Source of the DNA: Nitrospinota bacterium
GTDB taxonomy: Bacteria; Nitrospinota; Nitrospinia; Nitrospinales; VA-1
Length of the DNA stretch: 53,343 nucleotides
Direction: 5' to 3'
Assembly: GCA_009873635.1 (NCBI GenBank)
Contig: WAHY01000010.1
Location: 27,067 to 80,409 of the forward strand
Under the pieces are notes generated by a model. That model searched no databases and was not told the origin of the DNA. It saw only the letters and a list, made by a program, of their open reading frames with translations. This document shows positions 20,827 to 27,346 of the stretch, in pieces. A program made the position numbers and the translations under genes. Each line of letters begins with the position of its first letter. Position 1 is the first letter of the stretch.

Positions 20827-21642
20827 ATGGCAAGCCCCAGTTACTGGGTTCACGATCTGGACCCGTTCCTAATTCAATTTTCAGAGAACTTTGGCATCCG
20901 TTATTACGGGTTGGCCTATGCGTTGGGTTTTCTGGCTGGAATGTGGTTGTTGCACCTTTTCTGTAAACATGGAAAAGCGGCTCTCACGCCTGAACAGCAG
21001 TCGTTCACGATCACCGCTATGATGATCGGTGTATTGCTGGGTGGGCGTTTGGGTTATTCCCTGTTCTACGCCCTGAATGAAACTTTGCATAGACCCTGGA
21101 CCGTATTTCAAATTTGGAAAGGGGGCATGGCCAGCCATGGCGGGTTCATCGGTGTGATTGCGGCCTGCTGGTGGACAGCGAAAAAACTGAAGATTTCTTT
21201 TTTACAACTTGGGGATATCTTATGCCCTCTGGTTCCTCCGGGAATTTTACTGGGACGCATTGCCAATTTCATCAATGGAGAATTGTGGGGCAAAGTCACC
21301 AACGTTTCCTGGGCGGTGATCTTTCCTCAAAGTGCCCTGCCGGGAACTCCTTTTGATCAAATCGCGTCTCGGCACCCTTCGCAACTTTATGAGGCTGGCC
21401 TGGAAGGAGCATTACTGCTGATCTACAGCCAATGGCGGCTGTGGAAAACAGATGTTCTGAATTATCCCGGAAGATTGACTGGAGAATTTCTGATTATCTA
21501 TTCCGTGGTGCGGGTCTTTGGTGAACAGTTCAGAGAACCCGATGCGCCGCTCATTTTTGACCTCAGCCGGGGCAGTTTTTATAGCCTGTTTCTGCTTGCC
21601 GGTGGACTTTTCCTCGTTTTTCGATCCAGAAAAACAGCTTAG
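20827..21642 (+). CDS. lgt: Prolipoprotein diacylglyceryl transferase
   Basis: 271 aa integral inner-membrane enzyme that adds diacylglycerol from phosphatidylglycerol to the lipobox Cys. Hallmarks are RYYGLAYALGFLAG, MASHGGFIGV and GRIANFINGELWG (the Lgt signature with the essential Arg), then HPSQLYEAGLEG. Several hydrophobic spans. At least five lipobox proteins in this window would be substrates. It is 54 bp after hemB. Confidence 0.96.
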   Translation: MASPSYWVHDLDPFLIQFSENFGIRYYGLAYALGFLAGMWLLHLFCKHGKAALTPEQQSFTITAMMIGVLLGGRLGYSLFYALNETLHRPWTVFQIWKGGMASHGGFIGVIAACWWTAKKLKISFLQLGDILCPLVPPGILLGRIANFINGELWGKVTNVSWAVIFPQSALPGTPFDQIASRHPSQLYEAGLEGALLLIYSQWRLWKTDVLNYPGRLTGEFLIIYSVVRVFGEQFREPDAPLIFDLSRGSFYSLFLLAGGLFLVFRSRKTA

Positions 21643-21697
21643 TTCTACGGGTTCGCCCCTACCCGATTGCAACCCATTATATTCCAATACTCCAATC

Positions 21698-21856
21698 GTT
21701 ATAATCAGGCCTACAAATAGTTATAATAAAAATATCATATAGTTATAAAAGCTAAATACACTATATAGAGTATAGTTTTAATATAGATTTCTCATTTAAC
21801 GTCTTTTGACAGACAAATTATAATTAGTTATAGTTATAATTAACATTAGTTATAAA
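21698..21856 (+). promoter_or_regulatory. Run of TAGTTATAAT repeats, probable operator array
   Basis: Copies of (T)AGTTATAA(T/A), exact or nearly so, start at 21698 (GTTATAAT), 21718, 21740, 21773 (TAGTTTTAAT), 21825 (TAGTTATA), 21831 and 21847. An inverted ATTATAA is near 21818. The last copy abuts the ribosome-binding region of the HTH gene at 21870. The 227-bp lgt-HTH gap is otherwise AT-rich with nothing else recognisable. Binding by the downstream HTH protein is inferred. Confidence 0.6.
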
Positions 21857-21869
21857 AAAGGATTCAAAA

Positions 21870-22910
21870 ATGGTCAAGAATCAGGCTGAAGAAATACGCA
21901 CCTATTTATTAGCAAAAATACCGGTGCACCCGAAAAATATTGTCGCCAAAGCTTCTAAGGCGTATGCGTGCAGCCGCATGACGGTCCATCGGCATCTGAA
22001 TCGCCTGATACGCGATGGAAAGATCATCAAAACCGGTACCACCAGACAGGTGCAATATTATTTAATATCTGAAAAGAATAAAGAGATCATTGTCTCATTG
22101 AGAGATGGTGTTGTGGAGGAGCATAAAGTCTGGCAGGAAAATTTTTTAAAGGATTTTGAAACATTACCCCAAAATATTCTGGAAATTTGCGAATACGGTT
22201 TTCTGGAAATGCTCAACAACGCCATCGACCATTCAGAGGGAAAGGCCGTCGTTATCAGTACAGAATGGGAGCCTGATTCCGTTAAGATAGAGTTTGGGGA
22301 TGATGGCATTGGAATATTCCAAAAGATCAAAAAAACCTTGAGCCTTGAAGATGAAAGAGAAAGCGCCCTGCACCTTTCGAAAGGCAAATTCACGACCGAC
22401 CCGGAGAACCATACCGGTGAAGGCATATTTTTCACTTCCCGAGCATTCGATGATTTTTATATAACTTCAAGAGGTATGGCTTATCGGAAGGATAATGTAG
22501 TCGAAGACTGGTATATAGAAAAAGTAAAAAACTCTAAATTTTCCGGAACGGGTTTGGCAATGGAAATTGCTCTGGATTCAGAAAGAAAAATGCAGGAGGT
22601 TTATAATGAATACCAGCAAGAGGGTTCTGACGGAATAGAAAAGTTTGATAAGACTCATATTTTAGTGCAATTGAGCATGTTGGGTGACGAACGCTATGTT
22701 TCACGCTCACAGGCAAGACGCATCTGTTTAGGTCTGGAAAAATTCAAGCATGTTGTTCTCGACTTTAAAAACATTTCAACAGTGGGCCAGGGCTTTGTCG
22801 ATGAGGTGTTTCGCGTGTTTCAGTCCAAGCACCCCCGGATAAAAATCACATACACCAACGCCAATGACGATGTTCAATTCATGATCGAAAGAAGCCTCCC
22901 TGTTCTGTAG
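21870..22910 (+). CDS. HTH - GHKL ATPase - STAS-like (DUF4325) protein
   Basis: 346 aa with three modules. Residues about 1-75 form a winged HTH (SRMTVHRHLNRLIRDGKIIK). Residues about 95-240 are a GHKL ATP-binding fold: N-box LEMLNNAIDHSEG, G1 box GDDGIGIF, and a G2-like HTGEGIFFTSR. Residues about 270-346 match DUF4325, a STAS-like domain (YVSRSQARRICLGLEKFKHV; VLDFKNISTVGQGFVDEVFR). There is no phospho-acceptor His domain. This resembles an anti-sigma kinase and its STAS antagonist fused to a DNA-binding domain. Its ligand and targets are unknown. A GG-rich site (AAAAAGGATT) precedes the ATG. Confidence 0.8.
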   Translation: MVKNQAEEIRTYLLAKIPVHPKNIVAKASKAYACSRMTVHRHLNRLIRDGKIIKTGTTRQVQYYLISEKNKEIIVSLRDGVVEEHKVWQENFLKDFETLPQNILEICEYGFLEMLNNAIDHSEGKAVVISTEWEPDSVKIEFGDDGIGIFQKIKKTLSLEDERESALHLSKGKFTTDPENHTGEGIFFTSRAFDDFYITSRGMAYRKDNVVEDWYIEKVKNSKFSGTGLAMEIALDSERKMQEVYNEYQQEGSDGIEKFDKTHILVQLSMLGDERYVSRSQARRICLGLEKFKHVVLDFKNISTVGQGFVDEVFRVFQSKHPRIKITYTNANDDVQFMIERSLPVL

Positions 22911-22989
22911 AGAGACCGTAATTATGGTGTCTAAAGCCTGGAACAGGGTTGCTTGCCAGTTCAAGTTATTGCCAGATGGACCCATTGCC
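22911..22989. repeat. Dispersed 79-bp repeat, copy 1
   Basis: Begins directly after the stop of the HTH-GHKL gene and ends about 30 bp before the thermonuclease gene. It matches copy 2 (26646-26724) over its whole length, with an exact core GGTGTCTAAAGCC and further exact blocks GAACAGGGTTG and TTGCCAGTTCAAGTTAT. In this copy TTGCCAG occurs three times at a 16-bp period (22953, 22969, 22985). Confidence 0.8.
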
Positions 22990-23019
22990 AGCGGCGGCTC
23001 GCCGGTGTAAAATTTTATT

Positions 23020-23700
23020 ATGGGAATAAAGACGGGTTTATTAGTTCTGATGTTGTTTCTGGTTCCGCAGGCGGAGCTGACGAAGATCAACGGCGAAGTG
23101 ACTCTCGTTCGCGATGGAGACACGTTGACCGTTAAAACAAAACGCGACAAATTATTTAAGGTGCGTTTGGCCGATATTGACGCACCGGAAATAGGTCAGC
23201 CTTTTGGCAAGCCTTCCCGCAGACTTGCATCTGATTTGGCTTTGCATAAAACGGTGCGCGTGAACTATACCTTTAAAGATAAATATGGTCGTTTGATAGG
23301 AGAAGTATTTTTACCCGATGGCAAACTATTGAATGAGGAGATGCTTAAGGCAGGCCTGGCCTGGCACTACCGGGTTAAGCACCCCCATAGCAGTTTTCTT
23401 GAAAAACTCGAATACAAGGCGTGGAAAAAACAGTTGGGACTTTGGGTCCAGGAGAAACCGATTCCACCGTGGGAATTCCGTCGGGAAAAAAGGCTACCAT
23501 CTCCTCCCTCCCGGCCAGAGAATATGGATTATGACCTGTTTTTGTTATATGGCCTGGTGGGAAACCCCAAGACTCTTGTTTATGAGTGGCCGGAATGTGA
23601 AGGCTATCCTGAAGATACCAAGGGTTATCTTAGTTTCGGAAACCTTCTTGAAGCCGAAACCCTGGGGTACAGGGCTTCCTCAAGGTGTGAAACAGAATAA
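23020..23700 (+). CDS. Secreted thermonuclease (SNase) with a cysteine-bearing C-terminal module
   Basis: 226 aa. A signal peptide or anchor occupies about residues 1-18 (GLLVLMLFLVP). The SNase/OB-fold follows with the catalytic pattern DGDTL, VRLADIDAPE (Arg and Asp) and YGRLIGEVF (Arg). The tail from about residue 180 (NPKTLVYEWPECEGY ... ETLGYRASSRCE) resembles the small Ada-type metal-binding module often found after nuclease domains, with a YxxPxC...GYRxxxxC pattern. Probably acts on extracellular or periplasmic nucleic acid. No clear ribosome-binding site. Confidence 0.85.
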   Translation: MGIKTGLLVLMLFLVPQAELTKINGEVTLVRDGDTLTVKTKRDKLFKVRLADIDAPEIGQPFGKPSRRLASDLALHKTVRVNYTFKDKYGRLIGEVFLPDGKLLNEEMLKAGLAWHYRVKHPHSSFLEKLEYKAWKKQLGLWVQEKPIPPWEFRREKRLPSPPSRPENMDYDLFLLYGLVGNPKTLVYEWPECEGYPEDTKGYLSFGNLLEAETLGYRASSRCETE

Positions 23701-25707: not shown

Positions 25708-26100
25708 ATGACAAATCAAGTTGAAACTTTGAAATATAAAAAAGGCGAGCCCATTATTCGTGAGGGTGAAAGAAGCGACTGCGCCTATATTCTGGAATTT
25801 GGGTCCGCTGAAGTTTACAAATCTCTTCCAAACGGCGAACAACAGTTTTTAGGAGTTCTAAAATCAGGAGATATTTTTGGGGAACTGGGGCTGATTGATG
25901 GACTTCCCCGTTCGGCATCTGTCAAGGCGCTTGATACTTGTAGAATTCAAAAAATATCGCATGAGACTTTTAATTCGCTTGCTCAGCAAAATCCCAAGGC
26001 TTTAATGCCGATTTTAAAAGTTATTGCAACTCGGTTGAGACAAACCTTGAAGCTGGTCAACAGGCTTGAAAATAAGAGGCTGGAGCCAGAGGCAGTCTAG
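25708..26100 (+). CDS. Stand-alone cyclic-nucleotide-binding-domain protein, copy 1
   Basis: 130 aa, a single cNMP-binding (Crp-type) beta-roll with no HTH and no other domain. The phosphate-binding cassette is intact: GDIFGELGLIDGLPRSASV, with the Gly-Glu and Arg-Ser that contact the cyclic nucleotide. The final helix (ALMPILKVIATRLRQTLKLV) corresponds to Crp helix C. It is the most divergent of the three tandem copies. Probably co-transcribed with the upstream small membrane protein from the sigma-54 promoter. Confidence 0.85.
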   Translation: MTNQVETLKYKKGEPIIREGERSDCAYILEFGSAEVYKSLPNGEQQFLGVLKSGDIFGELGLIDGLPRSASVKALDTCRIQKISHETFNSLAQQNPKALMPILKVIATRLRQTLKLVNRLENKRLEPEAV

Positions 26101-26236
26101 CCAGGTTCATATTTTATCCCTTATTATTTTTACTTTCAAAAAATCTTAACATTGGTTTTGCTGTTCCCAACGGTGTTTTGCTTCTCAAAAAATACTTAAT
26201 TCTTCCTATTACCAGATCAATATAGATGGAGTAAAA

Positions 26237-26608
26237 ATGAAAAAACAATATTTCAAAAGAGGCGCACAAATCATAAAAGAAGGTACCTTGAGTGACTGTG
26301 CCTATATCATTGACTCAGGAAGCGTAAGGGTTACTAAAACCTTGAGCACAGGTGAAGTACAAACTATAGGCACTTTACAGGAAAATGATATTTTTGGGGA
26401 AATGGGTTTAATTGACAACCTTCCTCGATCTGCCAACGTGGTAGCTTTGGAGGATTGTTCCGTATCAGTGATGACTCAGGAGGCTTTTCAATCACTTTCA
26501 AAACACAACCCCGGGGCCTTGGTTCCTGTTTTAAAAGTTCTTGCGAAACGTCTGAGAAAAACGTTAAGCACTATTGAAGAGCTTGAAGGCTCTAAAAGCT
26601 TTTCATGA
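26237..26608 (+). CDS. Stand-alone cyclic-nucleotide-binding-domain protein, copy 2
   Basis: 123 aa. Same architecture as copy 1: cassette NDIFGEMGLIDNLPRSANV, terminal helix ALVPVLKVLAKRLRKTL, no effector domain. A GGAG ribosome-binding site precedes the ATG. It is closest to copy 3 (shared EGTLSDCAYIIDSG, LQENDIFGEMG and VVALEDC). The 136-bp gap before it shows no recognisable promoter. Confidence 0.85.
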   Translation: MKKQYFKRGAQIIKEGTLSDCAYIIDSGSVRVTKTLSTGEVQTIGTLQENDIFGEMGLIDNLPRSANVVALEDCSVSVMTQEAFQSLSKHNPGALVPVLKVLAKRLRKTLSTIEELEGSKSFS

Positions 26609-26645
26609 AAAATCAGGATATATCAGGAGTTGGTTTGAATTCTAA

Positions 26646-26724
26646 GAGACAATAATTTTGGTGTCTAAAGCCGAGAACAGGGTTGTTTGCCAGTTCAAGT
26701 TATAGCTAGTTGGCCCCACGCCAA
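26646..26724. repeat. Dispersed 79-bp repeat, copy 2
   Basis: Second copy of the element at 22911-22989, in the 348-bp gap between the second and third cNMP-domain genes. It shares AGAGAC at the left end and GGTGTCTAAAGCC in the middle, then GAACAGGGTTG and TTGCCAGTTCAAGTTAT. The 16-bp TTGCCAG periodicity is degenerate here. The rest of the gap (26725-26956) has a TTG-initiated frame with a hydrophobic stretch (26687-26875) that I do not regard as a supported gene. Confidence 0.8.
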
Positions 26725-26956
26725 GTGGATTGATATAAATTATTTCAAATTTTCAATGGTTTGTGCAGGATCTGCAATGCCAATATGCAGATCCTTTTTA
26801 CTTTTATTGTTGTTTACAGGCTCTTTTGCGAGCACAGGCTTATATTGCAATTATATACTTAAAGAATTACACTAGAGGACCATAAATTTCGCCAGGTTCA
26901 TAGCTCTGAGCCAAAGGTTATTATATTCCCGGTAACGAACTCGTTGGGTTGTTTTT

Positions 26957-27346
26957 ATGAAAACAGTATATTTCAAAAAAGGCGAAGAAATAATTCAGGA
27001 AGGAACCCTGAGTGATTGTGCCTATATTATTGACTCTGGTCAGGTTGAGGTTTCAAAAAAAAAGCCAAATGGTGAAAAGCAAATTATAGGTATACTCCAA
27101 GAAAATGATATTTTTGGAGAAATGGGGATGATAGATGGGTTTCCACGCTCTGCCACTGTAGTGGCTTTGGAAGATTGTACAATTTCGATCATGACTCAGG
27201 AAGCATTTAATTCCCTGGCTCAACATAATCCACAAGCTCTTATGCCCATACTTAAAGTTTTGGCAAAAAGGCTTAGGGCTACCTTGTCGCTTGTAGAAGA
27301 ATTGCAGGAAGGCAAGCCTTCCTCACATTTGAAAGACCATATTTAA
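26957..27346 (+). CDS. Stand-alone cyclic-nucleotide-binding-domain protein, copy 3
   Basis: 129 aa. Cassette NDIFGEMGMIDGFPRSATV and terminal helix ALMPILKVLAKRLRATLSLVEEL; ends in a short polar tail. Close paralogue of copy 2. Without an output domain these proteins would have to act by binding partners or by buffering ligand. No adjacent nucleotide cyclase is visible in the window. Confidence 0.85.
   Translation: MKTVYFKKGEEIIQEGTLSDCAYIIDSGQVEVSKKKPNGEKQIIGILQENDIFGEMGMIDGFPRSATVVALEDCTISIMTQEAFNSLAQHNPQALMPILKVLAKRLRATLSLVEELQEGKPSSHLKDHI

Follow-up and report, generated by a model that had tools for sequence, protein, structure and literature searches.

The characterised system nearest in spirit to the regulator described here is CapK/CapS. 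CapK carries a helix-turn-helix (HTH), a STAS and a GHKL domain in one protein, in the order HTH-STAS-GHKL, and acts as a single-stranded DNA (ssDNA)–activated kinase that phosphorylates the repressor CapS (EMBO J 2026, PMC13373217). The capK gene is always followed by capS, mostly ahead of immune operons, and the HTH of CapK is dispensable in a reporter (PMC13373217). The present protein is like CapK/CapS in joining the three kinds of domain in one chain, in its resemblance to anti-sigma kinases, and in having an autoregulatory promoter operator, which in the CapK/CapS system is bound by CapS. However, its order is HTH-GHKL-STAS-like, its gene is solo, its operators consist of direct repeats in 22-bp steps, and the phospho-acceptor Ser has become Gln. 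Since the order, the genetic context, and the phospho-acceptor all differ, the regulator was not classed as a CapK. An earlier, sequence-only reading of this DNA held that GHKL and STAS domains normally sit on separate proteins; with CapK joining both to an HTH, this is no longer quite true (PMC13373217).

The SpoIIAB/SpoIIAA and RsbW/RsbV partner-switch systems are also alike in combining a SpoIIAB-type GHKL domain with a STAS-like one, but the present regulator is a single polypeptide with its own DNA-binding domain and has Gln307 at the position of Ser58. Another precedent is BldC, a 68-residue HTH alone that assembles head to tail on multiple direct repeats of 9-bp sites and controls a broad regulon (PMC5859096). 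Head-to-tail assembly on direct repeats is the point of likeness, along with the MerR-type HTH of the actinobacterial members of the present family. In contrast to BldC, the HTH here is fused to GHKL and STAS-like domains, and the array is phased at 22 bp and nearly private to the gene. The protein is not a stand-alone BldC-like MerR HTH; it has a winged HTH (wHTH) within 346 residues of multidomain protein. Free-standing DUF4325 (PF14213) proteins have the STAS-like domain in common with it but lack the HTH and the ATPase. A literature search that fell short of most subscription journals found no paper on the HTH-GHKL-DUF4325 architecture; two of the papers covered mention DUF4325, and neither, judging from its abstract and title, deals with this arrangement.

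The regulator gene lies in a window of 53,343 nucleotides, the whole stretch of DNA analysed, from a Nitrospinota bacterium (Table 1). The sequence-only reading had placed an HTH, a GHKL fold with N, G1, and G2 boxes, and a DUF4325 domain in one 346-aa protein, and Pfam, hhalign, and an AF2 model (pLDDT 94.6, pTM 0.89) together bear this out.

Table 1. Features of the regulator locus, in window coordinates.
Feature	Position	Strand	Basis or detail
Putative distal operator array, three sites at exactly 22-bp steps	21696..21748	+	Lag-22 statistics; kept in Nitrospina relatives
Distal sites: TCGTTATAA; TAGTTATAA (twice)	21696-21704; 21718-21726 and 21740-21748	+	Starts 21696, 21718, 21740
AT palindrome of CTATATATAG type, then weak site TAGTTTTAA (21773-21781)	21757..21781	.	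Alignment
Sigma70-type promoter, TTGACA-17-TATAGT	21806..21834	+	11/12 consensus; -10 inside proximal operator
Putative proximal operator cluster	21818..21855	+	Forward 21825-21833, 21831-21839, 21847-21855; inverted 21818-21826, 21834-21842
HTH-GHKL-DUF4325 regulator gene	21870..22910	+	346 aa + stop; ORF, Pfam, alignment of relatives, AF2 model
Winged HTH, residues 1-66	21870..22067	+	AF2 model and profile matches to wHTH proteins
E84xxxW88 motif between HTH and GHKL domain	22119..22133	+	Alignment of 55 relatives
GHKL ATPase core	22200..22574	+	Fold match, profile alignment, residue counts
DUF4325 STAS-like domain	22635..22895	+	Pfam core = residues 281-336; AF2 model

In Pfam, the DUF4325 (PF14213) match over residues 281-336 has an E value of 8e-17 and scores 61.2 bits against a gathering cut-off of 23, while the HATPase_c and HATPase_c_2 matches of the 346-aa protein fall slightly below their curated cut-offs. 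The HTH is weak in Pfam and clear both in the AF2 model and in profile matches to wHTH proteins. The top PDB fold match of the model is SpoIIAB (1til, TM 0.73 by target), and a profile of 55 relatives aligns with SpoIIAB at an hhalign E value of 3.7e-8, with the N and G1 boxes in register. The features of a SpoIIAB/RsbW-type GHKL domain are present, namely the catalytic Glu and Asn of the N box (E113/N117/H121), the DxGxG of the G1 box (D144-G146-G148), and the GxG of the G2 box (G183-G185), together with a KGK at 171-173. N116, N117, H121, D144, G146, G148, and G183 occur in 55/55 relatives and E113 in 52/55. With catalytic residues that vary little or not at all, the ATP site looks intact, of SpoIIAB type, and apparently active. 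A BFVD fold search with the regulator gave generic wHTH and GHKL matches and nothing else. Assignment to a defence system was dropped, as PADLOC gave just a weak HTH match to Csa3.

The STAS-like domain departs from the classical partner. STAS proteins of the phosphorylatable SpoIIAA/RsbV/CapS type have a Ser or Thr at the N-terminus of the second helix; here that residue is absent and Gln307 (22788-22790) stands where SpoIIAA has its phospho-acceptor Ser58, by an ungapped hand alignment anchored on the spacing of the strand HVVLD and on the helix start in the AF2 model. The SpoIIAB and SpoIIAA reference sequences were checked against PDB chains, and profile comparison with SpoIIAA gave no match and no detectable sequence relation. 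With Gln at this position in 54/55 relatives, the protein is unlikely to work by classical partner switching, through phosphorylation in cis. The source genome also has two free-standing DUF4325 proteins (L145:2560-2916, + strand, and L146:2599-3000, - strand), whose genes lie beside those for a TPR protein and a cyclophilin; either might be a partner of the GHKL domain in trans.

The protein might instead be a stress kinase of the CapK kind, in which GHKL, upon a signal such as ssDNA, would act in trans by phosphorylating a STAS protein or some other one, and the HTH would just set the kinase level. CapK itself, an ssDNA-activated kinase combining the same three kinds of domain (PMC13373217), is the model for this, and E113, the counterpart of the SpoIIAB N box Glu, is retained in 52 of the 55 relatives. 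The two free DUF4325 proteins would be candidate substrates. The motif ahead of the GHKL domain, with E84 in 52/55 relatives and W88 in 45/55 (F in 5), supplies an aromatic residue that loosely recalls W68 of CapK. However, the domain order is unlike that of CapK, and no capS-like (STAS-wHTH) gene lies downstream, an SNase homologue being there instead, nor is there an adjacent immune operon. Also, CapK does not need its HTH in a reporter, but here the HTH and the operator have been kept as a pair. Such a kinase is thus an unlikely reading.

The operator evidence begins with the repeats. At up to one mismatch, the window holds 22 sites of the TAGTTATAA type; nine of these fall within 21696-21855 and 13 elsewhere. 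The nine comprise the seven forward copies that the sequence-only reading had counted and two inverted ones. When the local sequence was shuffled preserving dinucleotides and any 9-mer was allowed, the 8 forward copies observed were more than in any of 300 shuffles (at most 6), and so were the 4 exact copies (at most 3). Beyond that reading, the distal copies are phased at exactly 22 bp and the proximal copies overlap the -10 box. Rfam showed no structured RNA over 21400-23200.

Among Nitrospina relatives, the distal positions are unchanged in the alignment, and in most near relatives 83-86 bp separate the last distal site from the first proximal one. The promoter is found at the matching place as TTGACA-17-TATAAT in 9/11 near relatives, and in several relatives the proximal operator is a perfect palindrome, AGTTATAA-N6-TTATAACT. 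In Nitrospina relatives, a palindrome of the CTATATATAG type (window 21757-21775) is also conserved in the stretch from the distal to the proximal operator, outside the TAGTTATAA array.

Cooperative assembly is suggested because protomers 22 bp apart would sit on almost one side of the helix, and repression is suggested because the operator covers the -10 box. Some 57 bp upstream of the -35 box, the distal array could serve activation instead. The regulator would then be an activator of its own gene, with the array recruiting RNA polymerase in a bistable positive feedback and the proximal sites capping the level. The conserved position of the array, at its steady distance from the proximal operator in most near relatives, fits this. 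The promoter hexamers, however, match the consensus at 11 or 12 of 12 positions as they stand, and no site is more constant than the one over the -10 box, which favours repression, so that self-activation seems a decidedly poor prospect.

GTDB contigs, scanned once, gave 79 family loci, the 51 closest of which were used for the lag test. The same architecture with upstream repeats, which the sequence-only reading had proposed to seek in relatives, turned up in Nitrospinota, Planctomycetota, Gammaproteobacteria, Bdellovibrionota, Patescibacteria, and Auribacterota. An exact 7-mer is repeated at lag 22 in 32/51 family promoters as compared with 9/279 control upstream regions from the same loci. 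Orthologues without repeats would have told against that reading; the family as a whole does not show this, although about a third of its close members (19/51) lack an array by this strict criterion. Lag 22 is the peak in each of four taxonomic sets (Nitrospina; other Nitrospinota plus one planctomycete; Gammaproteobacteria/Bdellovibrionota; Patescibacteria/Auribacterota/others), with sums of 71, 19, 38, and 77 against expectations of 0.12-0.75. For example, Nitrospina relatives have sites at -179/-157/-135 and -51/-29, and a Bdellovibrionales relative of 45% identity has them at -177/-155 and -51/-29.

The repeat word itself varies by lineage (TAGTTATAA, ACATGTTATAA, GTTTACAA, and others). 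Residue 37 of the HTH, at the start of the recognition helix, goes with this word, being T or M where the word has TTATAA and Q where it has TTACAA. The match is suggestive (Fisher p 0.0017, with no correction for phylogeny and with the residue picked post hoc). Actinobacterial relatives, which have the MerR-type HTH in place of the winged one, show no array in their GC-rich promoters. The family tree mixes phyla, notably with Planctomycetota inside Nitrospinota; more than one change in such a tree is no proof of horizontal transfer. Searches of plasmids, phages, and viral contigs gave zero relatives of the regulator, leaving an origin in a mobile element or phage unsupported. One gammaproteobacterial locus has a second family member at +1890, 1.9 kb downstream of the first.

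Over about 80 genomes, the paired sites stand mostly before the regulator gene; they are nearly private to its promoter and not equally common in other AT-rich gaps, the circumstance that the sequence-only reading had named as damaging to it. In the source genome, the pair AGTTATAA N9-19 AGTTATAA is found once, at this promoter, and GTTATAA N8-20 GTTATAA three times, all at this promoter. Across 61 genomes from relatives of the window, the source genome included, the AGTTATAA pair has 22 matches, 19 of them before a regulator gene; two of the others lie in arrays without a gene and one in a coding region. When contig coordinates were compared with the table of family loci, 14/20 paired sites in the nine genomes with the TTTACAA word and 10/15 in the eleven with the GTTATAA word likewise preceded a regulator gene. 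Single TAGTTATAA sites elsewhere in the source genome number 19 in the list, at 18 loci and mostly within long open frames; none of these 18 carries an array. A few are intergenic and might be minor targets. An isolated overlapping double site, GTTATAATAGTTATAACTA (L138 398-410; G000:C20:17093), is a candidate second target.

The two arrays without a gene come from G053 and G054, incomplete MAGs of one genus (70-72% complete) that hold a distal TAGTTATAA array of 4-5 good sites between convergent SUMF1 and lipoprotein genes (L027 1498-1600; L028, reverse complement, 1500-1610). On comparison with L065 3830-5056, L148, and L149, the same interval contains the regulator gene in G042 and neither gene nor array in G044 and G048. 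Either the gene was lost recently from these genomes, or the solo array is a site bound in trans.

The ParR and TubR systems also have phased direct repeats in arrays around the promoter of their own gene. The array might accordingly work like a centromere or a set of iterons and be the true target of a nucleoprotein assembly of that kind, with promoter control secondary. The resemblance in layout and the arrays that G053 and G054 keep without an adjacent gene speak for it. But a gene for a separate motor is absent, the searches of plasmids, phages, and viral contigs gave no relative, and the gene is a single-copy chromosomal one in ordinary synteny within Nitrospinota, which together make this explanation very improbable.

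No conserved neighbour gene was found outside Nitrospinota. Because the adjoining genes are unrelated across loci and often convergent, the regulator gene appears mostly to form its own transcription unit. Within Nitrospinota, the SNase-type nuclease gene directly downstream (window 23020-23700) is kept beside the regulator in 15 loci. Farther along, at 25708-27346, lie three consecutive small proteins, putatively cyclic-nucleotide-binding-like (25708, 26237, 26957), that are alike by eye and have homologues in related loci.

These comparisons give good support to autoregulation through the upstream repeats, which are conserved across phyla, phased at 22 bp, promoter-overlapping, and nearly gene-private, with a word that shifts with the HTH. 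We consider it probable, though well short of assured, that the regulator is a solo, self-targeting autorepressor that binds cooperatively and is gated by its ATPase. The wHTH would recognise a short word, TAGTTATAA in this genome, and protomers would assemble cooperatively on one DNA face at 22-bp steps. Bound at the distal array and at the proximal operator over the -10 box, the regulator would repress its own promoter; the repressive sign is inferred from that overlap. Binding or hydrolysis of nucleotide in the SpoIIAB-like GHKL domain would most likely alter the assembly and free the promoter. The STAS-like domain may be a built-in partner of GHKL that, lacking classical phosphorylation, serves as a docked regulatory or sensory surface and not as a kinase substrate. 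Gating by ATP and docking are likewise inferred. Of the autoregulated switch in the sequence-only reading, the autoregulation through conserved, phased, promoter-overlapping repeats is therefore well borne out, and a phosphorylation form of the gating is disfavoured, given Gln in 54/55 relatives. A broader view can be offered only tentatively: the fold of a partner-switch kinase, with a non-phosphorylatable STAS-like pseudo-substrate in cis, may gate assembly on a 22-bp array that is essentially its sole genomic target, making this a cross-phylum one-component family of ATP-driven autoregulatory switches.

The design shared across several bacterial phyla suggests a hitherto undescribed family of self-controlling switches, in which the chemistry of the GHKL/STAS switch would be tied directly to DNA binding within one protein. 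Its natural variants, with many phyla, several operator words, and both wHTH and MerR-type heads, are material for studying ATPase-gated cooperative assembly on DNA, and DUF4325, an uncharacterised domain, gains its first concrete context. That a conserved regulator should have no clear target but itself also raises a pointed question, namely, which output does it serve?
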